A stretch of DNA of 64,000 nt. It comes from Granulosicoccus antarcticus IMCC3135. GTDB lineage: Bacteria > Pseudomonadota > Gammaproteobacteria > Granulosicoccales > Granulosicoccaceae. The position numbers and the translations under genes are program-made. Below the pieces are notes generated by a model. That model saw only the letters and a program-made list of their open reading frames with translations, was not told the origin of the DNA and did not search any database. How positions within the stretch are numbered: the stretch's first letter is position 1; each line of letters starts with the position of its first letter. The DNA lies in contig NZ_CP018632.1 in NCBI RefSeq assembly GCF_002215215.1, positions 7,250,501 to 7,314,500 of the forward strand. The letters run 5' to 3'. Shown one piece after another: positions 28,431 through 63,523 of this stretch.

Positions 28431-30230
28431 TCAGATGGCGAAGTGCGCCTCATCCAGATCCATCAGGTTATCGGCACCCGAGAGCATGGTCACAGCCAGG
28501 GTGCTGGTGCGAGGTAACAAGCGTTCCATGTAGAAACGCGCGGTGAACAGCTTGGCACGCAAAAAGACAGCATCGCCTTCGCCGGCTTCCAGCTGACGCT
28601 CGGCAGCAACCGCTGCCTGCGCCCAGAAATAGGCCATGACGATATAGCCGGAGTACATCAGGTAATCCACCGACGCGGCCCCTGCCTCCTCCTTGTCCTG
28701 CAATGCTGCCATGCCGATGCGCTGCGTCAGAGCACCCCATTCCACATTGAGCTTGGCCAACGGTCGGATGTAGCGATGCAATTCAGGCTCATCGCCATGC
28801 GCTTTACAAAATTTATGGATCTGTCGGGTGTAGGCCTTCAGCAGGGCACCTTGAGAACCCAGCACCTTGCGACCCAGTAAATCAATGGCCTGTACACCGG
28901 TGGTGCCTTCATAAATCATGGAGATACGCGCATCGCGTACGTTCTGCTCCATACCCCATTCCTTGATGTAGCCATGACCGCCGAATACCTGCATTCCAAG
29001 GTTCGCAGCTTCGAACCCGGTCTCGGTCAGGAATGCCTTGGCAATGGGCGTCAGTAGGGCCAGCTCCTGCTCGGCCGCCGCACGGGTTTGTTCATCAGCC
29101 CCCTGGTGAGCCAGATCGACCAGCATGCCGCAGCGATACAAAAACATGCGACCACCTTCAGCCAACGCTTTTTGTGTCAACAGCATGCGGCGCACATCCG
29201 GGTGCACAATGATGGGATCGGCCGGCTTGTCGGGTGCTGCAGCGCCAGACAGTGAGCGCATTTGCAGGCGGTCACGGGCATAGGCCAAAGAGCCCTGAAA
29301 GGCGAGTTCGGCATGCGCCAGACCTTGCACCGCAGTACCGATACGAGCCGTGTTCATGAAAGTGAACATACAGTTCAGGCCGCGATTGGGAGGCCCGATC
29401 AGAAAACCCTTGGCACCATCAAAATTGAGAACGCAGGTGGCGTTGCCATGAATACCCATCTTGTGCTCCAGCGAACCGCAGCTCACCGAGTTTCTGACAC
29501 CCATATTCCCATCGTCGGTCAACGAGAACTTGGGTACGATGAACAGGGAGATGCCACGCGTACCTTCTGGTGCACCAGCCAGCCTTGCCAGAACGATATG
29601 AACTATGTTGTCCGCCATGTCGTGTTCGCCGGCAGATATGAAGATTTTCTGTCCAGTAATGGCGTAGCTTCCATCATCATTGGGCTCCGCACGCGTCTTG
29701 AGCAGGCCCAGATCAGTGCCGCAATGCGACTCTGTCAGACACATGGTGCCGGTCCATTCGCCCGAAACCAGCTTGCTCAGGTAGTTTTCCTGCTGCTGCT
29801 CGGTTCCATGAGCAGCCAGGGTATTCATGGCACCGTGGGACAATCCCGGGTACATGGCCCAGGACCAGTTTGCGGTACCGTTCATTTCCGACAGAACGGT
29901 GCCCAGCGACTCAGGCAGTCCTTGTCCACCTTGCGCCACGGGTTGCGTCATGGATGGCCAACCGCCATCGACATATTGCTGATAAGCCTCACGAAAACCG
30001 TCTGGCGTGGTGACCTCACCATCCTTCAAAGTGCAGCCCTGTGTATCACCCACCGCATTTAGTGGACTCAGGACGTCCCGGGCAAACTTCGCCCCCTCTT
30101 CGAGAATGGCATCCACCACGTCGGGTGTTGCATCCTCAGCCCCTGGCAGGCTTGCGTAATGCTTGTCGAACTCAAGAACTTGTCGCAAGGCAAATCGCAT
30201 ATCTTGCAGTGGCGGATTGTACGCTGGCAT
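28431..30230 (-). CDS. Acyl-CoA dehydrogenase, long form with C-terminal extension (PA0506/DmdC-like)
   Basis: This 599-residue FAD enzyme introduces the first double bond in acyl-CoA degradation. Family features are MTQPVAQGGQGLPESLG, the FAD/substrate loop MCLTESHCGTDLGLLKTRAEPNDDGSYAITGQKIFIS, GIEHKMGIHG-like LEHKMGIHGNATCVL, the FGGHGYIKEWGMEQNVRDARI segment and the catalytic-Glu region IYEGTTGVQAIDL, followed by the acyl-CoA_dh C-terminal domain. Relatives include long-chain enzymes and methylmercaptopropionyl-CoA dehydrogenase, so chain length is uncertain. ATG 30230 (MPAYNPPLQDMRF) is the family start. The 5' leader contains a copy of the dispersed 13-mer. Confidence 0.9.
   Translation of the reverse strand: MPAYNPPLQDMRFALRQVLEFDKHYASLPGAEDATPDVVDAILEEGAKFARDVLSPLNAVGDTQGCTLKDGEVTTPDGFREAYQQYVDGGWPSMTQPVAQGGQGLPESLGTVLSEMNGTANWSWAMYPGLSHGAMNTLAAHGTEQQQENYLSKLVSGEWTGTMCLTESHCGTDLGLLKTRAEPNDDGSYAITGQKIFISAGEHDMADNIVHIVLARLAGAPEGTRGISLFIVPKFSLTDDGNMGVRNSVSCGSLEHKMGIHGNATCVLNFDGAKGFLIGPPNRGLNCMFTFMNTARIGTAVQGLAHAELAFQGSLAYARDRLQMRSLSGAAAPDKPADPIIVHPDVRRMLLTQKALAEGGRMFLYRCGMLVDLAHQGADEQTRAAAEQELALLTPIAKAFLTETGFEAANLGMQVFGGHGYIKEWGMEQNVRDARISMIYEGTTGVQAIDLLGRKVLGSQGALLKAYTRQIHKFCKAHGDEPELHRYIRPLAKLNVEWGALTQRIGMAALQDKEEAGAASVDYLMYSGYIVMAYFWAQAAVAAERQLEAGEGDAVFLRAKLFTARFYMERLLPRTSTLAVTMLSGADNLMDLDEAHFAI
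29495..29507 (+). repeat. Dispersed-motif match inside the acyl-CoA dehydrogenase gene
   Basis: TGACACCCATATT matches the core of AGACACCCATAAA at ten positions. It is antisense to the gene, unlike nearly all other coding copies, and could be coincidental. Confidence 0.35.
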
Positions 30231-30234
30231 TTCA

Positions 30235-30247
30235 AGACACCCATATA
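30235..30247 (+). repeat. Dispersed-motif copy in the acyl-CoA dehydrogenase leader
   Basis: AGACACCCATATA lies 4 nt upstream of the acyl-CoA dehydrogenase start codon, on the strand opposite to the gene, where a ribosome-binding site would normally sit. The last bases differ from the consensus AGACACCCATAAA. Confidence 0.7.
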
Positions 30248-30427
30248 GTTTAACTGCACTAAGTGTCGGCTGATTTCTACCCCAACTCAATGACGAATGC
30301 GGGCGAATCTACTGGCATTTTCGTTCACAGCTAGTGACACGATCTTTTACGAACATATAAATCAGTTGTTTAGCCTCACAACCAACTGTCAATGCAATGA
30401 CGATATCGCTTGCGTTAGTTGGGCAGG

Positions 30428-30467
30428 TTTATGGGTGTCTGCTGTTTTCGTCTCTGCTGTTTTCGTC
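30428..30467 (-). repeat. Exact dispersed 13-mer plus a 15-bp tandem duplication at the end of the AraC-type gene
   Basis: TTTATGGGTGTCT (30428-30440), the reverse complement of AGACACCCATAAA, supplies the stop codon of the regulator gene. It partly overlaps two tandem copies of TCTGCTGTTTTCGTC (30438-30452 and 30453-30467), which encode a repeated Asp-Glu-Asn-Ser-Arg tail. Confidence 0.85.
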
Positions 30468-31535
30468 GCTGGTGGCAAGTTGCGACAGGCTGTTCCGGTA
30501 CTCTGTCGGTGTCGCCCCGGTCCAACGCCTGAACGCCCTGAAGAACGCACTCACCTCATCAAATCCTAGCAGACCGGCGATTTCGTTATAAGTCAGATCA
30601 CTGGTCGCCAGGTATCGCACTGCCGCAACCCGTCGGCAATCATCCTTCAATCGCTGAAACGAGGTCCCTTCTTCCTGAAGCTGACGTCGTAATGTGCTGA
30701 CCGACATCCCCAGCTGTTCACTCACGTGATCGGCACCAGGAAGACGCCGCGAGTAATCATTACCAAACAATGCCAGCACACGATCACTCAATCGTCGATC
30801 ATCGTAGGACGGCACGATCAGTTGATAAGGAGCAGACTTCAGAAAGACGGACAGAGACTGCTCATTCTGCACATTGGGTAGCTGCAATATGTTTTTCTCA
30901 AACCGAATCAGCGACTGTTCGCAATCGAAATCAACCGGGCAGCGAAACAGGCGTGTCCACTTGGCACCATTGGCGGGCATGGGAAAGTCGAATTCCACGC
31001 ACCTCAACGGTATCGAACGTCCAGCAAACCAGCTGAGCAGGCTGTGCCACATGTACAGTGATGTACGTATACGCATCGGCCCTGCCGCATTCAGAATCTG
31101 CCGCAAACTGTGACCCGACTCATCGCACACGCCGGCAAAGCCGATACTGGTGCTGGAGCGATCATCAATAATATGCGGCTTGACCTTGAGACCATTGCAC
31201 ACATCCATGAACTCACCGGCCCGTGTCACGATAGCGCCCAGCGTTGGTTGATGAATAACGCACAGGCACATCATGCGAAAGGTGCCTCTTGCCACAGGAC
31301 CGCCACTGACCATGCCCAGAGACTCATCGCGTAGCAGCAACATCCCACGCTGATAAAGACGTCCGAACAGGGCGGCGGACAGATCAACCCCGGATTGCAA
31401 CTCCTCCAGAGTCACCCCTTCAGCTTCGGCAAACTCACGTGGATCATGCCCCTGATCGACGATGGCACGAAGCAGTGCCCGTACATTCGATTCGGATATC
31501 AAACCATTGGCAGAAGATGAAGGTGCTGCTGACAC
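30429..31535 (-). CDS. AraC family transcriptional regulator with arabinose-binding-like N-terminal domain
   Basis: This protein of about 368 residues has an N-terminal ligand domain of the OruR/ArgR-like AraC group (QRGMLLLRDESLGMVSGGPVARGTFRMMC) and a C-terminal double helix-turn-helix: HVSEQLGMSVSTLRRQLQEEGTSFQRLKDDCRRVAAVRYL and LTYNEIAGLLGFDEVSAFFRAFRRWTGATPTEYR. No ATG precedes the conserved region; GTG 31535 or TTG 31607 are possible and I prefer GTG. It lies 198 nt upstream of the acyl-CoA dehydrogenase gene on the same strand and may regulate it. The C-terminus SDENSRDENSRHP is a repeat-derived tail that ends in the dispersed motif. Confidence 0.85.
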   Translation of the reverse strand: MSAAPSSSANGLISESNVRALLRAIVDQGHDPREFAEAEGVTLEELQSGVDLSAALFGRLYQRGMLLLRDESLGMVSGGPVARGTFRMMCLCVIHQPTLGAIVTRAGEFMDVCNGLKVKPHIIDDRSSTSIGFAGVCDESGHSLRQILNAAGPMRIRTSLYMWHSLLSWFAGRSIPLRCVEFDFPMPANGAKWTRLFRCPVDFDCEQSLIRFEKNILQLPNVQNEQSLSVFLKSAPYQLIVPSYDDRRLSDRVLALFGNDYSRRLPGADHVSEQLGMSVSTLRRQLQEEGTSFQRLKDDCRRVAAVRYLATSDLTYNEIAGLLGFDEVSAFFRAFRRWTGATPTEYRNSLSQLATSDENSRDENSRHP

Positions 31536-31799
31536 GAGCTCGATATTTCTCTGTGAAGCTGAACGATATTCACAGCATAACGCGTCCGAAGGGTACGGCA
31601 ACTGCAATCATCAGCTGAGCATGAACCCCTGTCCTTGCGCAACAGAAGCGCCTGTCAGGCACCAGGATCAGCCACTCTCATTCAATGACTATGCCTTGCT
31701 CGCAAATGAAGGGCCGATAGGCCCTCACCGGCCCGGCCTACTGCTTTGAGAGACGGCATCAAAAGCCAAGCCATCTCTCAATGAGTCAACGATACTAAT
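31536..31799. other. Intergenic region between gltA and the AraC-type gene
   Basis: No supported gene lies here. A small hairpin GGGCC-GATA-GGCCC (31711-31724) and a weaker one, TTGAGAGA/TCTCTCAA (31746-31781), lie just after the gltA stop and probably mark its transcript end. Confidence 0.4.
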
Positions 31800-33146
31800 T
31801 CAAAGATCAAAGCCCGGGCGCTGGCCCTTTGGGATAATGTCTTCAGCCGAATCCGAGATCCAACCGCGCTGATCTCTGGGCACATAGTCATGCTCCGTAG
31901 GCCCTGTATAGATCTGACGTGGCCGACCGATTCGCGCGCCCTGGAGATTCTGTTCACGCCAATGAGCAATCCAGCCTGGCATGCGTCCCATGGCAAATAT
32001 CACGGTAAACATATTGGTCGGAATTCCCAACGCACGTAAAATGATGCCGCTGTAGAAATCCACATTCGGGTAGAGTTTGCGTTCCACAAAGTACGAATCA
32101 TTCAGTGCAATCTCTTCAAGACGCCGACCAATTTCAAGAAGTGGATCGTTGATGTTCAGATGCTTAAGCAGCTTCTCTGCAACCTCCTGCAGCATCTTCG
32201 CCCGTGGATCAAAATTCTTGTAGACGCGATGTCCAAAACCCATCAGGCGGACTCCACTGTTCTTGTCCTTGGCCAGACGCATGTACTCCTCAACCGACAA
32301 ATCACCCTGGTGTATTTGCTCGAGCATGTCCAGAACGGCGACGTTCGCACCACCGTGCAATGGCCCCCACAGAGCACAAACTCCAGCGGCACATGAGGCA
32401 AAAAGGTTCGCACCACTGCTACCCACCATCCGTACAGTGGAAGTGCTGCAGTTCTGCTCATGGTCGGCGTGCAGGATAAGCACCAGATTGAATGCCAGAC
32501 GAACGATTTCATCTGTCTCATGGGGCGCGTGAGGCTCTGAAAACATCATGTGCATGAAGTTTTCTACGTAGAGCAACTTCGGATTGGGATAGTTGTAAGT
32601 CCGGCCAATCGAACTTCGGTGAGCAAAAGCGGCAATCGTTCTGATCTTGCTGATCAGCCTGGCAGCGGCGGCGATGAATTGATCATCACTGTCTGCCCCG
32701 TTCATGTCAGGATGAAAACAAGACAAGGCATTGATCATGGCCGACAGGATCGCCATCGGCGGTGCCTGGGTCGGAAAGCCCTGAAAGTGATGCTTCATCG
32801 ACTCGTTCAGCATGGCATGCCGCGTCAAACGCTCGCTGAAATCGCCGTATTCAGCGGCCGTAGGCAAATTGCCAAAGATCAGTAGCCAGCAAACCTCAAT
32901 AAAGTTCGGTCGATTTGCGAACTGCTCAATGGGAATTCCACGGTAGCGCAAAATGCCTGCATCACCATCGATATAGGTAATAGCGCTTTCGCAACTACCT
33001 GTATTGCCGTAACCCTGGTCGAGTGTAATGTAGCCGGTAGTGTCGCGCAGCTTGCTGATATCCAGCCCCTTCTCTGCCTCACTACCCTCAACAACAGGTA
33101 ATTCAATTGACTTACCATCAAGAACTATAGATACGCTTTCACTCAT
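31800..33146 (-). CDS. gltA: Citrate synthase (type II)
   Basis: Citrate synthase condenses oxaloacetate with acetyl-CoA at the start of the TCA cycle. The 448-residue protein has the type II N-terminal domain (DTTGYITLDQGYGNTGSCESAITYIDGDAGILRYRGIPIEQ), LILHADHEQNCSTSTVRMVGSSGANLFA with the catalytic His, LWGPLHGGANVAVLDML, MGFGHRVYKNFDPRAKM and the catalytic-Asp region NVDFYSGIILRALGIPTNMF. The length fits the NADH-sensitive hexameric form. It is a single gene, with the accessory island beginning upstream of it. Confidence 0.97.
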   Translation of the reverse strand: MSESVSIVLDGKSIELPVVEGSEAEKGLDISKLRDTTGYITLDQGYGNTGSCESAITYIDGDAGILRYRGIPIEQFANRPNFIEVCWLLIFGNLPTAAEYGDFSERLTRHAMLNESMKHHFQGFPTQAPPMAILSAMINALSCFHPDMNGADSDDQFIAAAARLISKIRTIAAFAHRSSIGRTYNYPNPKLLYVENFMHMMFSEPHAPHETDEIVRLAFNLVLILHADHEQNCSTSTVRMVGSSGANLFASCAAGVCALWGPLHGGANVAVLDMLEQIHQGDLSVEEYMRLAKDKNSGVRLMGFGHRVYKNFDPRAKMLQEVAEKLLKHLNINDPLLEIGRRLEEIALNDSYFVERKLYPNVDFYSGIILRALGIPTNMFTVIFAMGRMPGWIAHWREQNLQGARIGRPRQIYTGPTEHDYVPRDQRGWISDSAEDIIPKGQRPGFDL

Positions 33147-33567
33147 AGCAGAACCAGCACTTTGTAAGGGATCAATTACTTAGAATAGTCGACGGGAAGT
33201 AGAATCACTAGTCTCGGACTACTGTTTGTCCATGCAGACCACGATCAGAAATTCAGCCGTACGGGTGCCATTTCTTGCATCAATGATGCCGAGCGTTTCA
33301 GGCTTGTTGATGGAAGCCAGAGCAACTCCAGAAATTCGCTATAGTTTGCGACTATTGCGAACACACATGCTCGCGATTCTTGCGTCGTTCTCTTCGTTCG
33401 TTGACTAACCGGTCGTCACTGCACTGAAACTTCCAACACCAGAAACTGTTTGTGCCTAAAAAGTTAGATTCGGATAATTACCATCTTATTCATTCCGTTC
33501 AGGCATGGAACGCCCTCTGCTCCGCAGCAGATAGCCGCGGGTCTGGATCGACATTAACGTAATCGAT
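33147..33567. other. gltA upstream region and left part of the accessory island
   Basis: This 421-bp region has no supported gene. A plus-strand open frame near 33231-33408 has no ribosome-binding site or recognisable similarity. The gltA promoter must lie in the first 200 bp. Base composition turns AT-rich to the right, suggesting that the island boundary is in this gap, but I found no copy of the tRNA-Thr 3' end here. Confidence 0.35.
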
Positions 33568-41373: not shown

Positions 41374-41381
41374 GAATTTAA

Positions 41382-45352: not shown

Positions 45353-45423
45353 AGACACCCATAAATTCTGACAGGTAATCCTGCCAATATTCCAATTGAA
45401 TACTTCACGCTTTATGGGTGTCT
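45353..45423. repeat. Inverted pair of exact dispersed 13-mers between the M61 gene and glnS
   Basis: AGACACCCATAAA (45353-45365) faces TTTATGGGTGTCT (45411-45423), so the two copies form a perfect 13-bp inverted repeat with a 45-nt loop in the divergent promoter region. Confidence 0.9.
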
Positions 45424-47669: not shown

Positions 47670-49334
47670 ATGTCCAATAGCATCCCTGCCCTGTTCAAGA
47701 CTAGCTTGGTCGCAGCCGCGATCGTATCGCTGAGCGCGTGCTCAACCACACCAGGCAAGGAAGACACTGGACTCAGCCGGGTGGGCGCGGGTATTTTGAC
47801 CGCGGGGCGAACCACCGCTGATGTGACAGGTCGCGCCTGGGACAAGACCACTTACCTGCTGGGTTTCAGTGACGAAGATACAGAAGCTCAAGCTGATGAG
47901 ACCCAAATCAGTCAGGCGGGAGCTGGCGAGACCCGACCTGGCCAGGAGCTATCCGATGAAGGCCTGCTGATGGATGCCGAAGAGGTGACGTTACTGGAGG
48001 GCAATGGAACGAGCTCTCGAGACACCACCATCCGTCCAATTGTCATACATAGCGCCACACCTAACCGCAGAGCGCGAGACCAGATTCCCTCAGTCACGCC
48101 ACGTGTAGAAACAAACCAGGCAGCAACCATTGAGACACCCATAAACGATGATGTGGGCGAACTAGCTGAATCCGACATCATTCCCCAGCCAGAAGCCTCG
48201 TCCGAATTGGCTACCACACTGCCTGAATCTGCACCCGCCATTGAGGACATGGTCCACACAGTGGGTTCGAGCGAGACATTATGGGATATCGCCAAACAGA
48301 CCACTGGCGATGCCACTAACTGGCACATTCTTGCTGACATCAATAATCTTGGACCCAACGCCTCTGTATACGCGGGCCAGAAGCTGATCATCCCTGCCGA
48401 CATGATCAAGCCATCACTGAATCAGACTGCTGCACTCGAGACTTCAGTTCAAGATTCGGTGCCCGAGCAAATTTATGTTGATACGCAAAACCTGTCAGGT
48501 GCAATCAGCGAAGAAACCGCAGCGAAGCCTCAGTTGGAGGTGCCAGCATCAGCAGCTAGCGACGCCGAAAAACCCACTCAGGTCAGTGCAAAGGCGTTCA
48601 AGCTGAACCCTGGTGAAACACTGTGGGATTTTGCCAAACGGACAACTGGAGATGCCACTAACTGGCAAGCAATTGCCGGGCAGAATGAATTTTCTGCAGA
48701 ACAGGCTGCGGTTGTAAGAACCGGTCAAACGATTTATGTGCCTGAAAACCTGATCAAATCAGATCTCGAATCCGCCATCATCACGGCAACACCAGAGCTT
48801 GAAACAGCAGTCAACGTCACATCATCAGTTGAGGATGAAGTGCTCGAAACGGTTGAAACAGCAGCGAACATCACGCCGGCTCAACCTTCAACAACGATTG
48901 CAAAAAGTGAAGCATTACGGACACTCACCATCTCATCCAAGCCCTCCAAGGTGGATGTGGCAGGTGAGACTGAGTTGCTGGATGCCAATGCAGATCTTCT
49001 ATCTGAGTCAATAGCATCAGTCAAGCCAGATCAAGCCATCAAGATTGTTGAAGCTAACTTCCAATCCGAAGAAACTACCAGCCTCACCACCCAGGCAACT
49101 GATGCGTTGAAAAGCGTCACACCGGAGCCGGATACTCAATCATCACCCGATCAGATCATGGTGAGCGGCACCTACTATCCGAAGGCGATATACAACAATG
49201 CCGATTTCTCCTCCAGCTTGTTGATGCGTGTCTCTCCCGGCACTACCCTGCAAGTCGCTAAATCCATGGGAAACTGGTATCAAGTGAAAACCAGCAAAGG
49301 TCTCGGCTACGTACACCAGCGAGATATAAAATAA
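47670..49334 (+). CDS. Lipoprotein with two LysM domains and a C-terminal SH3-like domain
   Basis: This 554-residue lipoprotein has the lipobox LSAC (AIVSLSACSTTPGK). Two LysM modules follow: HTVGSSETLWDIAKQTTGDATNW (about residues 196-245) and LNPGETLWDFAKRTTGDATNW (about residues 311-360), each with LAD/AGQN and a final VYAGQKLIIP or VRTGQTIYVP. Thr/Glu-rich linkers separate them. The end, SGTYYPKAIYNNADFSSSLLMRVS and LGYVHQRDIK, is SH3-like. It probably binds peptidoglycan. ATG 47670 with GAGAG upstream is chosen. A copy of the dispersed 13-mer lies in the first linker. The next gene is a shorter paralogue. Confidence 0.85.
   Translation: MSNSIPALFKTSLVAAAIVSLSACSTTPGKEDTGLSRVGAGILTAGRTTADVTGRAWDKTTYLLGFSDEDTEAQADETQISQAGAGETRPGQELSDEGLLMDAEEVTLLEGNGTSSRDTTIRPIVIHSATPNRRARDQIPSVTPRVETNQAATIETPINDDVGELAESDIIPQPEASSELATTLPESAPAIEDMVHTVGSSETLWDIAKQTTGDATNWHILADINNLGPNASVYAGQKLIIPADMIKPSLNQTAALETSVQDSVPEQIYVDTQNLSGAISEETAAKPQLEVPASAASDAEKPTQVSAKAFKLNPGETLWDFAKRTTGDATNWQAIAGQNEFSAEQAAVVRTGQTIYVPENLIKSDLESAIITATPELETAVNVTSSVEDEVLETVETAANITPAQPSTTIAKSEALRTLTISSKPSKVDVAGETELLDANADLLSESIASVKPDQAIKIVEANFQSEETTSLTTQATDALKSVTPEPDTQSSPDQIMVSGTYYPKAIYNNADFSSSLLMRVSPGTTLQVAKSMGNWYQVKTSKGLGYVHQRDIK
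48133..48145 (+). repeat. Exact dispersed 13-mer in the LysM lipoprotein linker
   Basis: AGACACCCATAAA is read here in the frame Glu-Thr-Pro-Ile-Asn, within the low-complexity linker before the first LysM domain. Confidence 0.9.
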
Positions 49335-50600: not shown

Positions 50601-51152
50601 ATGAGCAGCCAGTTCGTAACACTTGCTCGACATGCAAAATCGAGCTGGAAAACTGAAAACCAGGCCGATTTTGACCGTCCGCTGAATGAACGCGGCGCAA
50701 GGGATGGGCATACCATGGCCAGGCGTCTTCTGAACCGCCAATGTATTCCAGATCTGTTGCTGTGTAGCTCGGCACGCCGAGCTCAGGAAACTGCCGCCTT
50801 TCTGTACACAGAACTCAAACTGAGCGAAGAACAGTTTGAGTTGCACGATGAGCTGTACCTAGCCTCAGCAGGCACCCTCCTGGACATTCTATCCACTGTT
50901 CCCGTCACCGTGAATCATGTCATGGTCGTGGCCCATAACCCCGGCCTCGAAGCTCTTAGTGATCTGCTCGCCGGACGCACTTTGCCGCCACTACCGACAC
51001 TTGGCATCAGACAGTTTGCTGTCTCCTCCATCCGCGAACTCGGCTCCTACAAAAACAACGCCGCCCATTCAGACACCCATAAAGCCGATCCTGTCTCACC
51101 CGCTAAACTGGTGTTCGAAGACTATCCAAAGGCAGACAGAGGTGACTTGTAA
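50601..51152 (+). CDS. sixA: Phosphohistidine phosphatase SixA family
   Basis: SixA removes phosphate from histidine, as on ArcB or phosphotransferase proteins. The 183-residue product has the RHA motif at residues 10-12 (TLARHAKSSW), DFDRPLNERG, CSSARRAQETA and the second His in MVVAHNPGLEAL, with the short form lacking the large alpha-helical insert. AAAGGAG precedes the ATG. Near the C-terminus an insertion AAHSDTHKADPVSP contains an exact dispersed 13-mer, making the protein about 20 residues longer than E. coli SixA. Confidence 0.9.
   Translation: MSSQFVTLARHAKSSWKTENQADFDRPLNERGARDGHTMARRLLNRQCIPDLLLCSSARRAQETAAFLYTELKLSEEQFELHDELYLASAGTLLDILSTVPVTVNHVMVVAHNPGLEALSDLLAGRTLPPLPTLGIRQFAVSSIRELGSYKNNAAHSDTHKADPVSPAKLVFEDYPKADRGDL
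51071..51083 (+). repeat. Exact dispersed 13-mer in sixA
   Basis: AGACACCCATAAA, preceded by TC, is read as Ser-Asp-Thr-His-Lys in a variable loop near the SixA C-terminus. Confidence 0.9.
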
Positions 51153-51448: not shown

Positions 51449-51505
51449 AGACACCCATTATCCTCCCTCAAACCGCCTTACGGCTGCTTCATGACACCCA
51501 TATAG
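51449..51505 (+). repeat. Two dispersed-motif variants upstream of the 73-residue gene
   Basis: AGACACCCATTAT (51449-51461) and TGACACCCATATA (51492-51504) lie 43 bp apart in the divergent gap before the lipoprotein gene at 51635. The second matches the acyl-CoA dehydrogenase leader copy (30236) over GACACCCATATAGT. Confidence 0.8.
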
Positions 51506-52771: not shown

Positions 52772-53713
52772 ATGACAAGCATTGCGGAGACAAAGCCGGG
52801 TACACCCGTCGACGAGCCCCCCTCTCTGGCGACCTCAGACGAGGCAAAACCTGATCGAGCATGGGTTCAAACCTTGGCAGACATCGTCAGTGCATCTGAC
52901 CTTTCGTTGGAATCACGATTACGGACCAGTTTGTCGTGCGACATCACCGCCCGCCAACCAACGTTTTATTTCCCTCCCAAGATGGCCGAGCTTCAGCCTC
53001 GAAACTTTCGCTACCTTCAATGCTTTGCCAAGAAAAATGGTTTCAAGCTACTTGAAGACAGACGAAACAAGGATATTCAGCCGATTCTGGAAAGGCGTGA
53101 CCGCAAACCCGCCATGGTCGCACTGGGATTAAGTCTGTTGATGAAACAAACCGGCATACCGGGAGCTGCACGAATTCCGTCGGTACCACACCGCTTGAAC
53201 CCAGATAGCCAGTACATTGGACTTGGAAAGCTCATCAAGATGGCTGCATTTGCGACCCCCAATTCCAAACGCGTCGTAGTGCTCCCCAACCGTATTCTGG
53301 TCAATGCTCTCAAGGATACACAGCCCATCTCCGGACATGCCTGCAATATGACTTATGCAGGCAAAACCACGATTCTCAGCCATTTCGACTCGCAGTACTT
53401 CCGATCTATCGGATATTCCACCGGTAGTCAGTACGTTACGCATATTTGCCTGGCCGGTGGCCCTCGGGAACTTGCATCGCTATGGACCCAGCTACCCACG
53501 CTAACCAACACCGATTTCAAACTCCAGCTTTTTCCCGCCACCCGTGCCTCTGAGGACTTCGGACTCTTCTATATCACGCTGTATCTCAACATGGCAAAAA
53601 ATCCTTCCCCTTGGTGGCTGGAATCAGACACCCATAAAGGACTGGAATCAGACACCCACAAAATGAAGGCAAGTAACGATTCGCACACTCACAAGCATCG
53701 AAAAACAGGCTGA
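52772..53713 (+). CDS. Unknown 313-residue protein with motif-derived C-terminal tail
   Basis: This soluble protein starts MTSIAETKPGTPVDEPPSLA, with a low-complexity acidic N-terminus. A compact mixed alpha/beta region follows (QPTFYFPPKMAELQPRNFRYLQ, then RNKDIQPILERRDRKPAMVALG and GKTTILSHFDSQYFRSIGYSTG). The GKTT is not in a Walker A context. The tail, ESDTHKGLESDTHKMK and SHTHKHRKTG, arises from duplicated copies of the dispersed 13-mer. No signal peptide or membrane segment. I do not recognise the family. It stands alone between terminator-like regions. Confidence 0.65.
   Translation: MTSIAETKPGTPVDEPPSLATSDEAKPDRAWVQTLADIVSASDLSLESRLRTSLSCDITARQPTFYFPPKMAELQPRNFRYLQCFAKKNGFKLLEDRRNKDIQPILERRDRKPAMVALGLSLLMKQTGIPGAARIPSVPHRLNPDSQYIGLGKLIKMAAFATPNSKRVVVLPNRILVNALKDTQPISGHACNMTYAGKTTILSHFDSQYFRSIGYSTGSQYVTHICLAGGPRELASLWTQLPTLTNTDFKLQLFPATRASEDFGLFYITLYLNMAKNPSPWWLESDTHKGLESDTHKMKASNDSHTHKHRKTG
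53619..53663 (+). repeat. 24-bp direct repeat carrying two dispersed-motif copies
   Basis: CTGGAATCAGACACCCA followed by YAAA occurs at 53619-53639 and 53643-53663. The first has the exact 13-mer AGACACCCATAAA and the second has C for T. Both are read as Ser-Asp-Thr-His-Lys at the end of the unknown protein. Confidence 0.9.
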
Positions 53714-54041: not shown

Positions 54042-56000
54042 ATGTCCCTGATTCGCGTTCAAAACGCTTCTATAGCCTTCGGGCCAACTACCGTACTCGA
54101 TAAGGTCAATCTGACTATCGAACGCGGTGCCCGCATGGCTCTGGTCGGCAGAAATGGGGAAGGCAAGTCCACCCTGCTGAAGATAATTGCCGGAGAGCTG
54201 CTTCCCGATAGCGGTGAAATCGTAGGCACCTCTGGGCTCAAGACAGCTTATCTGCCGCAAGCCGTGCCCACCGACTTCGAAGGTACGGCATATGAAGTTG
54301 TCGCCTCGGCACTGAGTAAAGTGGGACGGGTGATTGCGGAGTATCACAAGGAATCCCAACGCCTCGCGCTGGGAGAAACCAAAACAGAGAGCGGGAAGTC
54401 ACTCGTTGACCACCTGGCCCATCTGCAAGATCAAATTGACTCCAACGATGGCTGGTCGTTAGTGCAAAAGGTCGAACAGACACTGTCGAAGATACAGATT
54501 GACCCTGAAGTAGATGTAAGTAGCTTGTCTGGCGGTATGAAGCGACGCGTCGTACTAGCTCGCGCGCTGGTGAGCGAACCCGACATCCTGTTACTGGATG
54601 AGCCTACCAACCACCTTGATATTGGAGCTGTAGCCTGGCTGGAGAATTATCTGGCCAACCTGAACTGCGCTCTGGTTTTTGTAACCCACGACCGGAAGTT
54701 TCTAGATTCCGTCGCCAATCATATCTGTGAGATCGACCGCGGCCTGCTGACCGAGTGGCCCAGTGGCTTTGCCGAATACCGCATTAACAAACAGATAGCG
54801 TTAGATGTGGAAGCTCAGCAAAACGCACTATTCGACAAGAAGCTTGCACAGGAAGAGGTCTGGATTCGCCAGGGAATCAAAGCTCGTCGCACCAGGAACG
54901 AAGGTCGTGTCAGAGCTTTGAAGAAACTTCGGGAACAGCATTCCTCTCGTCGCTCTGTTGTCGGACAAGCTCGAATGTCAGTCAACCAGGCAGAGAACTC
55001 AGGAAAGATCATCTTCGAAACGGAGTCCATGAGTTTTTCTCATGGCGACAGAGAGATCATTTCTGATTTTTCAACCGTTGTCATGCGCGATGACCGAATT
55101 GGCATCATCGGACCCAATGGTTGTGGAAAATCCACACTGGTCAAGCTTCTGGTAGGAGAGCTCACACCAACCACGGGAACCGTGAAAAGCGGCACACAGC
55201 TAGAGGTGGCTTACTACGATCAGCTGCGCGCTACACTGGACCCCAAGCTTTCTGCGGCTGACAATGTCAGCGGTGGCCGGGATACCGTTGATGTCAACGG
55301 CAGCCCGCGACACATCATGAGCTATATGCAGGATTTCCTGTTTGATCCTTCACGCGCACGCGCTCCCATTACTGCCTTGTCTGGTGGCGAAACCGGGCGC
55401 CTCATGCTGGCTAAACTTTTTCTCAAGCCCTCAAACCTGATCGTGCTGGATGAGCCTAGTAATGATCTTGACATCGAGACTCTGGAATTGCTGGAAGCCC
55501 TGCTAGGTGAATACAAAGGCACTGTGGTTTTGATCAGTCACGACAGACAGCTACTTGAAAACGTTGTCACTCGCAGCCTCGTTTATCAAGGCGATGGAAA
55601 CTTTATTGACGTTGCTGGTGGTTACGAAGATTTCGAACGCGAAAGACTAACCTCCAACACCTTGAAGCCTGTTTTTGATCAATCCGACCTGAACCAGACA
55701 CCCACAAAGTCAAAGAAACAACAGAGCAACAAAAGCAGCACTCAAAAAAAAACTCGAGAAAAAAAGCCAGAGCCAAATAAACTCTCCCATGCGGACAGTA
55801 AAGAGCTAAAGCAATTACCCCGCAAGATCAACGAGTTGGAATTGTCGCTGGCTAGCCTGCACCAGCGCATGAACGCTTCAGACTTCTACAACGACAAGGT
55901 TCAGGCTGACAAAACAATCAAGGATTCACAGGGCATACAAACCGAGCTGGACCTTGCCTATGCACGCTGGGAAGCACTCGAAGCTCTATCCGGATCGTGA
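54042..56000 (+). CDS. uup: ABC-F family ATPase Uup
   Basis: This 652-residue cytoplasmic ABC-F protein acts on ribosomes or branched DNA intermediates. It has two NBDs: Walker A GRNGEGKST and signature LSGGMKRRVVLA with LLLDEPTNHLD, then GPNGCGKST, LSGGETGRLMLA and LIVLDEPSNDLD. The ABC-F interdomain linker (about residues 240-320, KKLAQEEVWIRQGIKARRTRNEGRVRALKKLR) and a C-terminal coiled coil (about 585-650: LKQLPRKINELELSLASLHQRMN) identify Uup. The lysine-rich linker before the coiled coil carries a dispersed-motif copy read as Gln-Thr-Pro-Thr-Lys. Confidence 0.93.
   Translation: MSLIRVQNASIAFGPTTVLDKVNLTIERGARMALVGRNGEGKSTLLKIIAGELLPDSGEIVGTSGLKTAYLPQAVPTDFEGTAYEVVASALSKVGRVIAEYHKESQRLALGETKTESGKSLVDHLAHLQDQIDSNDGWSLVQKVEQTLSKIQIDPEVDVSSLSGGMKRRVVLARALVSEPDILLLDEPTNHLDIGAVAWLENYLANLNCALVFVTHDRKFLDSVANHICEIDRGLLTEWPSGFAEYRINKQIALDVEAQQNALFDKKLAQEEVWIRQGIKARRTRNEGRVRALKKLREQHSSRRSVVGQARMSVNQAENSGKIIFETESMSFSHGDREIISDFSTVVMRDDRIGIIGPNGCGKSTLVKLLVGELTPTTGTVKSGTQLEVAYYDQLRATLDPKLSAADNVSGGRDTVDVNGSPRHIMSYMQDFLFDPSRARAPITALSGGETGRLMLAKLFLKPSNLIVLDEPSNDLDIETLELLEALLGEYKGTVVLISHDRQLLENVVTRSLVYQGDGNFIDVAGGYEDFERERLTSNTLKPVFDQSDLNQTPTKSKKQQSNKSSTQKKTREKKPEPNKLSHADSKELKQLPRKINELELSLASLHQRMNASDFYNDKVQADKTIKDSQGIQTELDLAYARWEALEALSGS
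55696..55708 (+). repeat. Dispersed-motif variant in the uup linker
   Basis: AGACACCCACAAA differs by one base from the consensus and lies in the low-complexity linker before the Uup C-terminal coiled coil. Confidence 0.85.
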
Positions 56001-56110: not shown

Positions 56111-57112
56111 ATGGCAACTCCAAGACGGCTTGATGCCGCGCTACAACTGACGCCTTATTTTCACTGCACCAGCCGATGCGTGCGTGGCAGCTTTCTTTGT
56201 GGCATTGATCGAACTACCGGTCAGGATTTCACCCATCGGCGTCGCTGGCTTCGTAAGCGACTTCTGCAGCTTGCCACTATATTTTCGATAAAACTCGTCG
56301 CTTTTGCCATCATGGAAAATCACTTCCATGTCGTTCTGCGAGTTGATCGAGATATAGCGGAAACGTGGTCAGATGACGAGGTCATCCTTCGCTGGCATCA
56401 GCTTTTCAAAGGCACCGAGCTTAGCCGCCGCCATAGTGATTCAGAAACACTCGACTCATCTGAACTGAAAATACTATCCGCCAGTGTCCGTCGCTGGCGT
56501 AATGCCCTACACGATATCAGCTGGCTCATGCGCTGCGCGAAAGAACCATTGGCTCGCTTGTCGAACAGAGAGGATGATTGTAAAGGCCGTTTCTGGGAAG
56601 GGCGATTCCACAGCCAGACATTACTTGATGCCCGAGCGGTCGTTGCTTGCATGGCATATGTGGATTTGAATCCGACTCGTGCACAGATGTGCAGTGTGCC
56701 GGAAGAGGACCCTTTTACCTCTCTTCATTGTCGATTCAAAGCTGCATACAATGACACTGCAGCAACAGAGCCACTCCCTCCGGGTCTAATCAATCTGGAC
56801 GAACAAAGTGAGAACAAACGGTACCCACAATTGCTCGTCAATACGCTTGAATACATCGAACTTGTAGACTTGACAGCTCGATTACACAGACCAGACAAGA
56901 GAGGCGCTCTTTCCTCACAAGCCATGCCTGCACTTCAAAGATTAGGCATTAACAAGGCCTCATGGCAAGAGCTCGAAAAATGTTTCAAGCAGCACTTCCA
57001 TGTGCTGGTCGGAACTAGCGCTTCATTGAAACAAGCTTGCCAGGCGCTAGGTAAAAGATATGCCTGGGGACAGAAAGAATGTCACGACTTTTTCAATGGA
57101 GCTCCAATATGA
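56111..57112 (+). CDS. Y1/HUH single-strand transposase-like protein (RAYT-related)
   Basis: This 333-residue protein has the IS200/RAYT-type Y1 transposase fold: an N-terminal TPYFHCTSRCVRGSFLCG, the HUH metal motif in MENHFHVVLRVDRD, and the catalytic Tyr region MAYVDLNPTRA, preceded by RFWEGRFHSQTLLD. A C-terminal extension of about 130 residues includes SLKQACQALGKRYAWGQ. These proteins are usually single-copy domesticated enzymes linked to short dispersed palindromes. No flanking terminal repeats were noticed. It is convergent with gpmI, with an 11-nt gap. It is the only candidate here for an enzyme that could spread short repeats. Confidence 0.82.
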   Translation: MATPRRLDAALQLTPYFHCTSRCVRGSFLCGIDRTTGQDFTHRRRWLRKRLLQLATIFSIKLVAFAIMENHFHVVLRVDRDIAETWSDDEVILRWHQLFKGTELSRRHSDSETLDSSELKILSASVRRWRNALHDISWLMRCAKEPLARLSNREDDCKGRFWEGRFHSQTLLDARAVVACMAYVDLNPTRAQMCSVPEEDPFTSLHCRFKAAYNDTAATEPLPPGLINLDEQSENKRYPQLLVNTLEYIELVDLTARLHRPDKRGALSSQAMPALQRLGINKASWQELEKCFKQHFHVLVGTSASLKQACQALGKRYAWGQKECHDFFNGAPI

Positions 57113-57123: not shown

Positions 57124-58662
57124 CTAGTACGGCCCCAACAACAACGAAGAGCCTGTCATGGACTCTGGCTGATCAAGCCCCATGAGTTGTAGTATTGTCG
57201 GAGCGATGGAAGGCAGACCGTTACCATTACCCAACTCCCACATGATGGTATCGTGCACGACGCAGGCAACTGGAAATGTCGTATGTTGTGTATGAGGGTC
57301 TCCGCTCACGGGATCAAGCAGCATGTCAGCATTGCCGTGATCGGCAGCAAGAACGATTGAATAATCATTCGCTACCGCGCACTCCCACATTCTCCCAACC
57401 ATTTTGTCCACAGTCTCGACCGCACTTACAACTGCTTCTCTGACTCCTGTGTGACCCACCATGTCGCCATTCGCCAGGTTAACGACTATCAGCCCTGCAC
57501 TCTGCTCTTCAAGTGCGCGAACGATTCCATCAGTCACTTCAACCGCACTCATCTCTGGCTTCAGGTCATAGGTCGCTACTTTTGGCGAGGCCACCAACAA
57601 TCGCTCCTCTCCTGCAAGGGGAGCATCCTGACCACCGTTGAAAAAGAACGTAACGTGAGGATATTTCTCGGTCTCTGCGGAACGAATCTGTTTGATTCCA
57701 GCATCGGATACCGCTTGCCCAAGAGTCTTGCCAGGCTCGTCACGTGTGAATGCACATGCAAACGGATAGGAGCTCTCATAGCGCGTCATCGTTGTGAGAG
57801 TCACCGGCGTGAAGTCCCCTCTATCAAATCCTTCGAACTCAGCAAGCCCCAATGCTTCACTCAACTCCCTGGGTCGATCGTTGCGGAAGTTGAAGAAGAA
57901 AACTTCAGATTGAGCGTCTAGAGGTTTGTGGGTGTCTAGAACAGTGGGTGTGATGAACTCATCAGTCTCGCCAGCATCGTAAGCCTTCTGGATAGCATCG
58001 TCGACAGAGGCCGCTTTGCGACCTTGGGCACACGCGATAGCTTGCCAGGCTGATTCGACTCTGTCCCAGCGCGTGTCACGGTCCATTGCGAAATAACGAC
58101 CTGACACGGTTGCAATGTGACCATCAGCCTTCTCCAACGACTGCAATACCCCACCCATAAACTGCCGCACACTGCTCGGTGCAGTATCTCGCCCATCCGA
58201 GATGACATGCAACACAGGCGTGACTTGATTCTTTGCGCACAGTTCTATCAACGCGATTAGATGCTCGGTATGACTATGAACACCGCCATCAGATACCAAG
58301 CCAAGCAAATGCAGAGGTACACCCTTGCTTTTTGCTCGCTCCAACGCACCGCACACCGCCTCATTTTCAGCGAAAGTACCATCCGCAATCGCATCACCAA
58401 TCTTCACCAAATCCTGCCGTAGCACCGTTCCTGCGCCTATTGACAGGTGCCCTACTTCAGAATTTCCCATTTGCCCTTCGGGCAGTCCAACCGCACGCCC
58501 GGATGCTTCCAGCAAGCACGTTGGATGGGTCGAGTAGATCCGATCAAGATTCTGGGTGTCTGCCAGAGCCACAGCGTTGTTGAGCTTGCACGGGTTTACA
58601 CCAATGCCATCCATGATGATTAACAGAACTCGTCTGCGTGGAGGTTGCTGGAAGTCATTCAT
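57124..58662 (-). CDS. gpmI: 2,3-bisphosphoglycerate-independent phosphoglycerate mutase
   Basis: GpmI interconverts 3- and 2-phosphoglycerate using two manganese ions. The 512-residue protein has the metal/Ser motif MGNSEVGHLSIGAG (phosphorylated Ser about residue 69), HSHTEHLIALIELC, DGRDTAPSSV, the FFNFRNDRPRELSEAL segment, YPHVTFFFNGG and the C-terminal AADHGNADML plus HTTFPVACV metal ligands. A copy of the dispersed motif gives VLDTHKPLDAQ in a surface region where family members vary. It lies between the HUH gene and the tat operon. Confidence 0.96.
   Translation of the reverse strand: MNDFQQPPRRRVLLIIMDGIGVNPCKLNNAVALADTQNLDRIYSTHPTCLLEASGRAVGLPEGQMGNSEVGHLSIGAGTVLRQDLVKIGDAIADGTFAENEAVCGALERAKSKGVPLHLLGLVSDGGVHSHTEHLIALIELCAKNQVTPVLHVISDGRDTAPSSVRQFMGGVLQSLEKADGHIATVSGRYFAMDRDTRWDRVESAWQAIACAQGRKAASVDDAIQKAYDAGETDEFITPTVLDTHKPLDAQSEVFFFNFRNDRPRELSEALGLAEFEGFDRGDFTPVTLTTMTRYESSYPFACAFTRDEPGKTLGQAVSDAGIKQIRSAETEKYPHVTFFFNGGQDAPLAGEERLLVASPKVATYDLKPEMSAVEVTDGIVRALEEQSAGLIVVNLANGDMVGHTGVREAVVSAVETVDKMVGRMWECAVANDYSIVLAADHGNADMLLDPVSGDPHTQHTTFPVACVVHDTIMWELGNGNGLPSIAPTILQLMGLDQPESMTGSSLLLGPY
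57925..57937 (-). repeat. Dispersed-motif variant in gpmI
   Basis: On the coding (minus) strand it reads AGACACCCACAAA, giving Asp-Thr-His-Lys in a variable loop of GpmI. Confidence 0.85.
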
Positions 58663-58822: not shown

Positions 58823-59836
58823 TCAGCGCTGATCATCGTCAGGATTGTCATCCGAACTGTCGTCGGTTGAATCGGTCAGGCTATTACGGTACTTACCCTG
58901 TGCGTCCGGTTTTTCGACCAGCGACGGGTCTACTACATCTGCAGGGCTTGCTTTCTGGGTATCTGACACGACATCACTTTTGCCTTGGGCCGGATGGCTT
59001 GACGGTTTATGGGTGTCTTCTGTTGTGTCTGATGCTTTATGGGTGTCTTCTGTTGTAGACGAGTCATCGTTGTAGCGGCGTTCGCGTTCTACGCCAGCGT
59101 CAGTTATGCGCTGCTTGTAGGTCCGGGAGAACACAATGCCTACTTCGTACAGCAGCCACATGGGTATGGCCAGTAGGGTCTGTGAAATGATGTCGGGAGG
59201 CGTCAGGAACATCCCAATGATGAAGGCAGCCACAAAGACATAAGGTCGAATCTTGACCAGATTTTCCGGCGTGGTGATTCCGACAGCAACGACAAGAACC
59301 GTGGCCACAGGGACTTCGAACGCTATGCCAAATGCAAAGAACAGCGTTATGACAAAGTCCAGGTAACGGCCAATATCGGTACTGACCGTGACCCCCTCCG
59401 GAGCAACGCTTGTGAAGAAACCGAACACCAGGGGGAAAACCACGAAGTAGGCAAACGCGACACCGAGATAGAAAAGTCCCGTGCTGGACACAAGTAGCGG
59501 CACCACAAGCTTCTTCTCATGGGAGTAGAGTCCTGGCGCAACGAAAGACCAAATCTGATACAGCAGGTAGGGCACTGACAGAAAGACGCACAACATGAGC
59601 GTCAGTTTGAACGGTATGAAAAACGGTGCCGCTACATCGATAGCGATCATTTGACTATCAGGCAGATGCTTGAGCAGTGGCGCTGCCAGTGCCGTATATA
59701 TCTTGTCCGAAAACCAGAAGAGACACAGAAAAAGTATCCCGACAGCGAGCAGCATCTTTAACAATCTGTCGCGCAATTCGACAAGATGAGACAGAAAACC
59801 TTGTTCTTCTTCTACCACTGAATCTGACGTTGCCAT
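58823..59836 (-). CDS. tatC: Twin-arginine translocase subunit TatC with long acidic tail
   Basis: TatC recognises twin-arginine signal peptides in the inner membrane. The protein has 337 residues. The first 245 hold the six membrane spans and the conserved [15 protein letters not shown]-terminus, the Glu-containing PLVFGFF region and [22 protein letters not shown]. The remaining 85 residues form a Ser/Asp/Lys-rich hydrophilic tail absent from E. coli TatC (258 residues). The tail contains two EDTHK blocks from a 30-bp direct repeat, plus SDTQKASP, a degenerate third. It is the last gene of the his-tat cluster. Confidence 0.95.
59006..59056 (-). repeat. 30-bp-spaced direct repeat carrying two exact 13-mers in tatC
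   Basis: TTTATGGGTGTCTTCTGTTG and one more T are identical at 59006-59026 and 59036-59056. Both contain the exact reverse complement of AGACACCCATAAA and encode Thr-Glu-Asp-Thr-His-Lys in the tatC tail. Confidence 0.95.
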
Positions 59837-61823: not shown

Positions 61824-62597
61824 CTATATGCGCACTTCGATGGATCGTGATGCCATGTGTGCCTTCGCTTCAGCGATCGTATATTCACCGAAGTGAAAGA
61901 TGCTGGCTGCCAACACCGCATCAGCACCGCCCTTCAGCACTCCATCACTCAAATGCTCTAGCGTGCCGACACCACCGGAAGCAATCACCGGTATTTCCAC
62001 GGCATCAGTAATGGCCCGAGTCAGTGCCAGATCAAAACCGATCTTCGTACCATCGCGATCCATACTGGTCAACAATAGCTCCCCAGCACCGTACTCAGCC
62101 ATCCTGATAGCCCACTCGATGGCGTCAAGCCCTGTACTGGTTCGGCCACCGTGTGTAAAAATTTCCCATCGCGGTGCCTCGCCTGGCTTCGAGACAGATT
62201 TGGCGTCCAAGGCGACAACGATGCATTGCGAGCCGACCTTGTCGGTGGCTTCACGCACCAGATCCGGACGGTTAACAGCAGCAGTATTGATACCCACCTT
62301 GTCTGCCCCGGCGTTCAGCAACCGACGCACGTCTTCAACCGAGCGGATTCCGCCTCCCACGGTCAGAGGAATGAAAACCTCTGAAGCAACCTCTTCCACG
62401 ACATGCAGAATCGTATCTCGGTTATCGGAGCTTGCGGTGATGTCCAGAAAGGTGATTTCATCGGCACCGGCTTCGTTGTACCCGCGCGCAACACTGACGG
62501 GGTCACCCGCGTCGCGGATCTCCAGAAACTTGACACCTTTCACCACACGACCGCCGTCCACATCAAGACACGGAATGATTCGTTTTGCCAAGCCCAT
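61824..62597 (-). CDS. hisF: Imidazole glycerol phosphate synthase cyclase subunit
   Basis: HisF forms imidazole glycerol phosphate and AICAR with ammonia from HisH. The 257-residue TIM barrel has the catalytic Asp pair in [15 protein letters not shown] and VALDAKS, the phosphate loops [12 protein letters not shown] and [12 protein letters not shown], and the [13 protein letters not shown] segment. It starts 11 nt after hisA. HisA and HisF are ancient half-barrel duplicates and share several of these motifs. Confidence 0.97.
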
Positions 62598-62608
62598 GAT
62601 CAGATCCC

Positions 62609-63352
62609 CTAGGCGTTATCGGTGTAGCTATCAGCCAACGCCTGAGCTTGCGCCAGGTCGATGGTTTTCTCATACAGTGCCCGGCCCACTATTGCACCCG
62701 CGATGCCGCGATGCCGCTGTTTACCCAGCGCATCGATGTCGTCAATATTGGTGACTCCGCCAGAGGCAATGATGGGAATATTGACCGCGTCCGCCAGTGC
62801 GGCCGTCGCTTCCGTGTTAACACCTTGCATCATACCGTCCCGACTTATGTCGGTGTACACGATGGCACTGACACCAACATCCTCGAATCGCTTCGCCAGT
62901 GACACAGCGGTAACACTCGACGCTTCAGCCCAGCCTTCCGTTGCCACAAAACCTTCATTGGCATCAAGACCAACAATGACGTGACCGGGAAAGCGTTGGC
63001 AGAGTTCATCCACGAATTCTGGCTGCTTGACCGCCAATGTGCCGATGATCAGGTACTGGACACCTGCATTGATATAGGCAGTGGCCGTCTCTATCGAGCG
63101 AATTCCACCACCGATCTGCACAGGCACATCACCACAAGCCTTGCAAATCTCACTGACAACGGCCGCATTACGCGGTTCGCCAGCAAAAGCCCCGTCAAGG
63201 TCGACCAGATGGATGCGTCGAGCTCCCTCTTTCAACCAACGCCTGGCCACATCAACCGGGTTGTCATCAAACACGGTGTCATCGTCCATACGCCCCTGGC
63301 GCAGACGTACACATTTTCCATCTTTCAGATCTATGGCTGGAATTATCAGCAT
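62609..63352 (-). CDS. hisA: ProFAR isomerase (HisA)
   Basis: HisA isomerises ProFAR to PRFAR in histidine synthesis. The 247-residue TIM barrel starts [20 protein letters not shown] (catalytic Asp8) and has [34 protein letters not shown] (second Asp) and [17 protein letters not shown] 63352 is the family start; the frame stays open to 63406. The 166-nt gap to hisH contains three copies of the dispersed motif. Confidence 0.97.
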
Positions 63353-63425
63353 CAAATCGATTCCGTTTTCTTGAACGAGAAAGGGGACATTCCAGCAGCA
63401 CTGCAAAATGCGCTAGCCAGGAATA

Positions 63426-63523
63426 AGACACCCATAAAGTGACAGGCTTTCTGAAAGCAACAGAAGACACCCATAATTCTAACGGATGCCGTCTGACTCC
63501 CGATCTTCTGGACACCCATTAAC
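63426..63523 (+). repeat. Three dispersed-motif copies in the hisH-hisA gap
   Basis: An exact AGACACCCATAAA (63426-63438), then AGACACCCATAAT (63465-63477) and GGACACCCATTAA (63510-63522), lie on the same strand, antisense to the his operon. The last one touches the hisH stop codon. Confidence 0.9.

Follow-up and report, generated by a model that had tools for sequence, protein, structure and literature searches.

A recurrent GACA-NN-CA word and a putative HUH transposase gene in one chromosomal region of Granulosicoccus antarcticus

Why should a single 13-base word recur over a limited stretch of a bacterial chromosome, both between genes and within them? The question is raised by a 64,000-nucleotide stretch of the chromosome of Granulosicoccus antarcticus IMCC3135 (contig NZ_CP018632.1, positions 7250501-7314500 of 7,783,862 bases; this whole stretch is hereafter the window, and its genome is G000 where genomes must be told apart), whose right half is strewn with the 13-mer AGACACCCATAAA and its 10-base core AGACACCCAT. 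An original prediction, made from the letters of the window, offered a DNA-uptake signal, a nucleoid-protein site and a proliferating micro-repeat as possible readings. We find that gene and word are associated in space, in phylogeny and in orientation, the gene being that of a transposase inside the window. AGACACCCATAAA is very probably the local form of a spaced word, GACA-NN-CA, the putative cognate element of this HUH/Y1 subclass 2.3 transposase, and the two NN bases vary with the transposase.

The word and the transposase gene at its centre

The window holds 21 matches to the word at up to 2 mismatches, against a mean of 1.18 and a largest value of 4 across 100 shuffles, which bears out the excess over chance claimed originally; the nine exact copies claimed likewise all proved exact when the 18 listed places were rechecked. 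Genome-wide the exact word occurs 17 times, always between 7241413 and 7336967 (within 96 kb), and the reversed-pattern control not once. Allowing one mismatch adds 18 copies (35 in total, reversed control 12), 11 of them within 7218106-7337204, and the core has 38 copies, 25 in that same interval and 13 elsewhere, with 12 genome-wide for its reversed control. Since the core is at chance level outside these ~120 kb, the enrichment is real but regional. A word profile run over 784 kb puts 16 of its 48 matches in a density peak at 7300-7320 kb; 400 kb sampled elsewhere in the genome gave one match.

Inside this peak, at 56111..57112 on the forward strand of the window (7306611-7307609 of the genome), lies an intact gene for a 333-amino-acid (aa) protein that motifs and profile matches mark as a TnpA_Y1 single-strand transposase of the HUH type, similar to the RAYTs, the tyrosine transposases associated with repetitive extragenic palindromic (REP) sequences. 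The open reading frame (ORF) was missed by the gene caller of our script and is absent from the original prediction. In this complete genome the gene has one full-length copy, and 25 of the 38 core copies are found no more than 100 kb from it. The protein carries a HuH motif (N70-H71-F72-H73), the pair W162-E163 and the run Y183-V-D-L-N-P188; H71, H73, W162, Y183, D185, L186, N187 and P188 are invariant in 18 aligned sequences, and the majority HuH consensus of these is NHYH, the window copy reading NHFH and the subclass pattern being NH[YF]H. NCBIfam REP_Tyr_transpos matches with an E value of 9.9e-11 and 41.7 bits, under its cut-off of 80, and Pfam Y1_Tnp with 0.0023, also under cut-off, 10 of the 18 homologous sequences matching the latter at 0.01. 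Searches of the PDB with the protein, by sequence and by profile, gave no match. The text of Quentin 2018 (PMC6006769) gives TnpA_Y1 subclass 2.3 a median length of 325 aa, a HuH-Y distance of 110, extra domains in the form of core inserts (beta1-alphaA and beta3-alphaC) and a two-part C-terminal tail, and a distribution chiefly in Chromatiales and Alteromonadales with several copies per genome. With 333 aa and 110 residues from H73 to Y183, the window protein matches these values (the end residues of the published distance are unspecified in the text), and its spacing and length agree with the inserts and tail, the predicted structure being unusable at a mean predicted local distance difference test score (pLDDT) of 38. 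By the motifs tested, the protein thus fits subclass 2.3 of the RAYT superfamily.

Over 242 sites in the genus, convergent neighbours lie a median of 306 bp apart (35 of 45 within 600 bp) and divergent neighbours 1462 bp (13 of 41 within 600 bp), a difference with p 0.0002 by strand permutation that is also seen in some single segments (G000, p 0.017; G019b, 0.047; G032/G027, of another genus, 0.016). The 29 core sites used for G000 form six convergent junctions of 62 to 2233 bp, the widest of which encloses the transposase gene, and five divergent junctions of 2.7 to 38.7 kb. Near the gene the words of the genus mostly face it: 27 of 35 do so at distances of up to 2 kb and 16 of 24 at 2-5 kb. 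As for folding, 186 words of the genus score -1.03 against -1.07 for shuffled sequence (standard deviation 0.05) and are no better folded, those of G028, from a further genus, are less folded than shuffled sequence, and 179 words from other loci are somewhat more strongly folded than shuffled sequence (-1.73 against -1.56, standard deviation 0.07). A motif acting at the RNA level was considered and rejected, as words between same-direction genes show no orientation bias (31 sense, 34 antisense).

The word follows the gene among relatives

With a full-length homologue defined by E < 1e-100 and words counted with RGACACCCRYRAA against a reversed control, the gene is present in 5 of 27 genus genomes, and these are exactly the five that are rich in words (25-41 matches each, 169 in total, control 13); the other 22 have 35 matches, against 64 for the control, and three of them have short, weak protein matches. 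In all five the transposase gene, 57-65% identical, adjoins gpmI, and the gpmI neighbourhoods of the four word-rich genomes other than G000 each hold a full-length copy, which was not found in the other 17 neighbourhoods searched, some of which do not cover the gap. AGACACCCA has a single occurrence in 20 gpmI neighbourhoods of other genomes, in G003. Stretches of G024, G012, G019 and G001 can be aligned with the region (~65-80% nucleotide identity) and carry clustered words (up to 2 mismatches), several at corresponding places, and the number and spacing of words in intergenic gaps differ between species, with tandem arrays in relatives that repeat, for example, every 29, 38 or 44 bp. In all, 13 of the 57 genomes of a first search of relatives carry an exact copy, and few are rich.

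The idea that word-poor relatives have a different word was rejected after inspection by eye of 20 gpmI neighbourhoods (17 of the genus), in which no other word stood out save for GACACCC variants in G028 and, in G014, a tandem array. The G014 array (L125:117-260), close to gpmI, repeats a 30-bp unit with TGACTCTAC / GTAGAGAATCC parts and is perhaps a GTAG-type REP array.

The same pairing is seen in other genera. In a second genus, G032 (17 word matches, control 1) and G027 (7, control 1) have long homologues, and G035 has a 78-residue protein match and 0 word matches; in a third, G028 has long homologues and 40 word matches (control 2). The profiles differ by genus, being ANC-AGACACCCAT in the genus of the window, AATTC-N-RGACACCCA in G028, and GGACACCCA with A/T-rich flanks in G032 and G027. 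Across the class, 49 of 369 genomes have a transposase match at E <= 1e-40, some of them 5, and around 48 homologue loci the flanking copies of GACANNCA face the gene in 176 cases and face away from it in 28. The 43 homologue loci that remain once the five of the window's genus are set aside, drawn from a larger number of matches (a few broken or partial and several from one genus, inward and outward words being counted up to 4 per locus), were used to rank all 4096 spaced words by inward pointing. GACA..CA comes first, with 127 words inward and 16 outward, an excess of 111 where the standard deviation across the 4096 words is 7.2, and the four words ranked behind it are pieces of it that overlap. 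More words point inward than outward at 40 of the 43 loci, 30 loci have words on both sides, and G032 has five on each side of the transposase gene, all pointing towards it. NN, in the 29 loci where it is repeated, is CC in 18, GG in 5, GC in 2, and CA, GT, TC and CG in one each.

Counts for single genomes show how closely words gather at the homologues. Over a background close to chance, G293 has 81 copies of GGACACCCA (control 61), 19 of which fall in the 11 kb surrounding the homologue; G320 has 84 (control 14), with, among the matches listed, 16 around one homologue and 20 around another; G259 has 73 words (control 24), 11 at the listed homologue; and G031 and G367, with no genome-wide excess (31 vs 37 and 21 vs 23), nonetheless have 4 and 6 words at a homologue. 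Nearness to the gene is strong but not exclusive. At its locus (L292:239-1260), G367 also has GGACAGG words followed by CACTCTTGAGTG, a small perfect hairpin, so that in this genome the word looks REP-like. Three family genomes, G057, G066 and G061, have 16, 10 and 8 transposase matches, many of them fragments, which would reflect turnover of the transposase gene in another genus.

Words inside genes and across the region

The position of words relative to genes was examined at 212 sites from the five genus genomes plus G028, with genes called by a simple and therefore rough script of our own. Of these sites 98 are inside called genes and 114 outside, so that, assuming 85% coding, words are ~6.6-fold rarer per base inside genes. 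Those inside are sense in 77 cases and antisense in 21, a tendency towards the coding strand that agrees in direction with the original prediction but falls short of its "almost always". The sense words read DTHK in 52 of the 77, (E/Q)TP(I/T) in 19 and RHP-stop in 6, and the preference for the DTHK frame may reflect tolerance, since another sense frame ends in a stop.

Nor does the original claim hold that the words keep out of catalytic cores: that of gpmI falls within the stretch matched by Pfam iPGM_N, and dtd, a gene just beyond the window, has two words at places where the protein aligns well. Four of the five gpmI orthologues from word-rich genomes read DTHKP with GACACCCA intact, and the fifth, in G019, reads DIHKP with the word decayed; 20 other genomes have DAHEP, DSHEA, DAYAM and similar, 19 of the 20 without a change in length. 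At both dtd sites all five have CAT or CAC following GACACC, and in 13 other genomes H is never found at either site, with the length preserved in 13 of 13 and in 12 of 13 (some relatives do not cover a given site in these comparisons). The comparison of orthologues that was originally suggested yields at these two genes words that arose through substitution, with no change in length. The tails of tatC, uup and the LysM protein vary in length, so insertion is possible for the words there.

Synonymous codons suggest that the word sequence itself matters. Six genes were compared in five species at codons whose amino acid is identical in all five, with hisA and hisF serving as background only and the tatC word codons not aligned in all five species. 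Outside words the synonymous sites are saturated, with 21 of 497 four-fold and 62 of 365 two-fold codons invariant; inside words all four of the four-fold codons, divided equally between dtd and uup, are invariant, as are 5 of the 8 two-fold codons (dtd and gpmI). The difference is large, though the word codons are few and the words were picked from one genome only.

The two words nearest the transposase gene both point towards it and are variants with CAC for CAT. The last upstream, at 55696..55708 (+), lies in uup (ABC-F) in the frame QTPTK, and the first downstream, at 57925..57937 (-), is the substitution-gained word of gpmI. Two exact words lie in the C-terminal tail of tatC (59006..59018 and 59036..59048, both -). 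An exact copy at 53626..53638 (+) and a CAC variant at 53650..53662 (+) share the tail of a 313-aa protein without a Pfam match; both had been reported one base off, at 53627 and 53651, and the single mismatch reported for the variants at 53650, 55696 and 57925 is confirmed. Exact words also occur in the LysM-SH3 protein gene in the frame ETPIN (48133..48145, +) and close to the C terminus of a histidine-phosphatase (51071..51083, +). Between the M61 peptidase gene and glnS, 45353..45365 (+) and 45411..45423 (-) form an exact convergent pair; in viral contigs three stretches matched the M61 peptidase pattern and none was confirmed. A further exact word, 30428..30440 (-), contains the stop codon of an AraC-type regulator ORF (30429-31607), and its convergent partner at 30235..30247 (+) has one mismatch. 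In the gap between ORFs 62609-63406 and 63519-63992 lie an exact word (63426..63438, +) and one with 1 mismatch (63465..63477, +), and a word with 2 mismatches at 51449..51461 (+) is intergenic by the script's gene calls. Among the near matches listed originally, 30235 and 63465 have one mismatch and 51449, 51492 and 63510 two, as near matches should; the one at 29495 has three and is weak.

Ordinary core genes make up most of what was annotated in the region, among them those for AddAB-like nucleases and citrate synthase, glnS, uup, gpmI, the tat and his genes and dtd. The region also contains an island with an IS66 transposase. Window positions 32001-42000 are low in GC (0.42-0.48 in four of five 2-kb steps), encode the IS66 transposase at 38142-39800, a Schlafen AlbA_2 protein at 40651-41241 and a tRNA-Thr at 41382-41457, and contain no word at up to 2 mismatches. 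Short tandem repeat arrays, found through the commonest 15- to 20-mers, lie in or near the region at 7326418-7326598, 7192280-7192365 and 7323195-7323267. Elsewhere in the genome there are 13 matches to the DnaA ATPase family (for example at 1767306, 1791817, 2284585, 3896606, 3910392, 4623704 and 7149966), several of which share score and length (280-302 aa), and these multicopy matches are probably ATPases associated with insertion sequences.

Explanations and known systems

The best reading of these sequences is a REP-like system that would work largely, though not only, near its own gene, with words kept by selection or rewriting. TnpA_REP of Escherichia coli is reported to cut and rejoin DNA at REPs, and by analogy the transposase may recognise the word as single-stranded DNA and cut and rejoin there. 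Coupling of transcription and translation would let it act largely near its own gene, so that words would pile up as convergent pairs and as arrays over tens of kilobases. Their peak at a single gene would then be a natural record of a transposase acting close to where it is encoded. Tandem arrays might expand by local duplication, and words in genes might begin as substitutions in near-matching sequence and afterwards be preserved, either through selection or through being rewritten again and again from other words. A bolder version, to which we would give a low probability, is that a chromosomal transposase writes and keeps its word over ~100 kb of core chromosome, GpmI and Dtd included, by rewriting in place and not by insertion, perhaps through short single strands that anneal to near-matching sequence at the fork. 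If so, a regional address specified by a transposase would now be part of the host chromosome.

A number of observations count against the REP-like system as we describe it. Copying by the transposase does not alone explain the length-preserving gains, and the assignment to the HUH fold rests on motifs and below-cut-off profile matches, since the single-sequence fold of the transposase was unusable. Convergence is not clear in three segments taken alone (G012b, p 0.19; G019a, 0.61; G028, 0.09), words of the genus more than 5 kb from the gene show no bias (45 in, 41 out), and of the 43 loci two lean outward and one is even. Words also occur away from the gene: contig C14 of G320 has a cluster and no homologue listed at E <= 1e-40, and its contig C3 a homologue and no GGACACCCA among the matches listed; G259 has more clusters on contigs without a homologue listed at that threshold, G028 has words on ~20 contigs, most without a listed homologue, and three of the 13 exact copies of G024 are on contigs (C12, C28, C54) not shown to be regional, the C28 piece encoding a homologue of a gene near 7.707 Mb. 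The family genome G030 has no protein match at 1e-5 and yet six word matches (control 1), which are spread over six contigs and are perhaps relics after loss of the transposase. In a fourth genus, 13 of 14 genomes have some protein match and no excess of this word, as would fit the other NN mostly seen in the flanks of its homologues.

One alternative is a domesticated host factor, in which the transposase-derived protein would bind the words as regional marks of the chromosome, an anchor or an organiser of domains or supercoils close to the origin without lying at it, and selection would preserve the words for that use. The nucleoid-protein site of the original prediction may amount to such host use of protein and words. 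The single intact full-length copy in each word-rich genome of the genus, kept beside gpmI through 57-65% protein identity, is in its favour and speaks against a purely selfish element, as are the conservation of words at saturated synonymous positions and the confinement of the words to a region ~0.48 Mb left of dnaA. Against it stand the 22 genus genomes that lack both the full-length gene and an excess of words, which also speak against host need, the differences in word number and gap spacing between species, and the clusters at homologues that other genera have in other (unannotated) surroundings. On balance we consider the domesticated factor rather unlikely. The question whether RAYT-like transposases and their repeats serve the host becomes testable here, and the words fixed in dtd and uup, at synonymous sites that are saturated otherwise, are unusual evidence of constraint or rewriting at the level of DNA.

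The remaining explanations are far less probable. A DNA-uptake signal like the Neisseria or Pasteurellaceae words would suit a short, non-palindromic word that is on both strands and gained by substitution within genes, but the near-random counts elsewhere, while leaving the feature itself real, remove this idea, since the 10-mer is at chance outside the region, 22 of 27 genus genomes lack an excess and the word follows the transposase gene; we give it almost no credence. A selected peptide motif, DTHK, in several proteins draws on the dominant reading frame, and is scarcely conceivable when 114 of 212 sites are outside called genes and 19 and 6 sense words are in other frames and 21 antisense. 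Neutral local duplication of a micro-repeat, with the transposase as bystander, might produce tandem arrays such as those of relatives, yet it leaves the co-occurrence of gene and word, the inward lean, the gains by substitution and the synonymous conservation without a cause, and we hold it to be very improbable. The proliferating micro-repeat comes nearest of the three original readings, with the difference that the words are not standalone and track a gene it did not mention. Two further candidates were rejected. An origin or a parS-like centromere does not agree with the distance from dnaA or with a scan of 784 kb around the origin using a parS word and one variant, whose lone match (G000:C1:3483) has 2 mismatches to the consensus variant, and a MatP system would need a PF06303 match, none being found in this genome at E <= 0.001.

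Short dispersed words, some of them regional, are known from matS and MatP, from the ram sites of RacA and from DNA uptake. The matS and ram sites are palindromic and bound by other protein families, and DNA uptake words are genome-wide. The closest likeness is to RAYT/TnpA_REP and REPs, for which the text of Nunvar 2010 (PMC2817692) describes a Y1 HUH transposase with its own repeat on either side in inverted copies, a repeat that co-evolves with the protein and an abundance of repeats that follows the presence of the gene. The same text reports REPs that accumulate near the gene, over regions of up to two hundred kb, in three marine gammaproteobacteria and Thauera, and Nunvar 2013 proposes that copies close by are acted on preferentially because transcription is coupled to translation. 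Inverted copies likewise flank the transposase gene here, with the inward lean at 40 of 43 loci and words on both sides at 30. Unlike REPs, the word has no GT[AG]G head (the profiles of three genera show RGACACCC without a preceding GTAG or GTGG) and no hairpin in the genus of the window, occurs in core genes by substitution as well (98 of 212 sites being genic), is regional in the window's genome, and is ~10-16 bp long where the text of De Nocera 2013 (PMC3733652) gives 20-40 bp for REPs. That text also describes TIRYTs and TIRtrons, Y1 genes with flanking inverted repeats that are not REPs, some in moderately abundant families; these are similar in layout but share the motif GGGGWSAS, whereas no GGGG occurs in the word profiles of three genera, and 20 of 26 TIRYT examples are placed in subclass 2.1 in the text of PMC6006769. 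REPINs, as described in the text of PMC8049555, are doublets in inverted orientation that persist together with one RAYT passed on vertically, to which our system is similar, but they form hairpins and number at least 69 per genome in E. coli. The system would function like RAYT and REP, while its word, with the GTAG head missing and the hairpin missing in the genus, is not a REP.

The window protein resembles published subclass 2.3 in length, WE, YVDLNP, wide HuH-Y spacing and long C-terminal tail. For subclasses 2.1 and 2.3, Quentin 2018 (PMC6006769) states in its text that neither automatic nor manual search found REP-like sequences, and no word for subclass 2.3 was seen in the main texts of the open-access papers searched. 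GACA-NN-CA, unlike that published picture, leans inward at most homologue loci outside the genus, and is here proposed as the substrate of a transposase subclass without one on record, its NN offering a code of specificity that can be read directly and used to test how DNA is chosen by HUH proteins.

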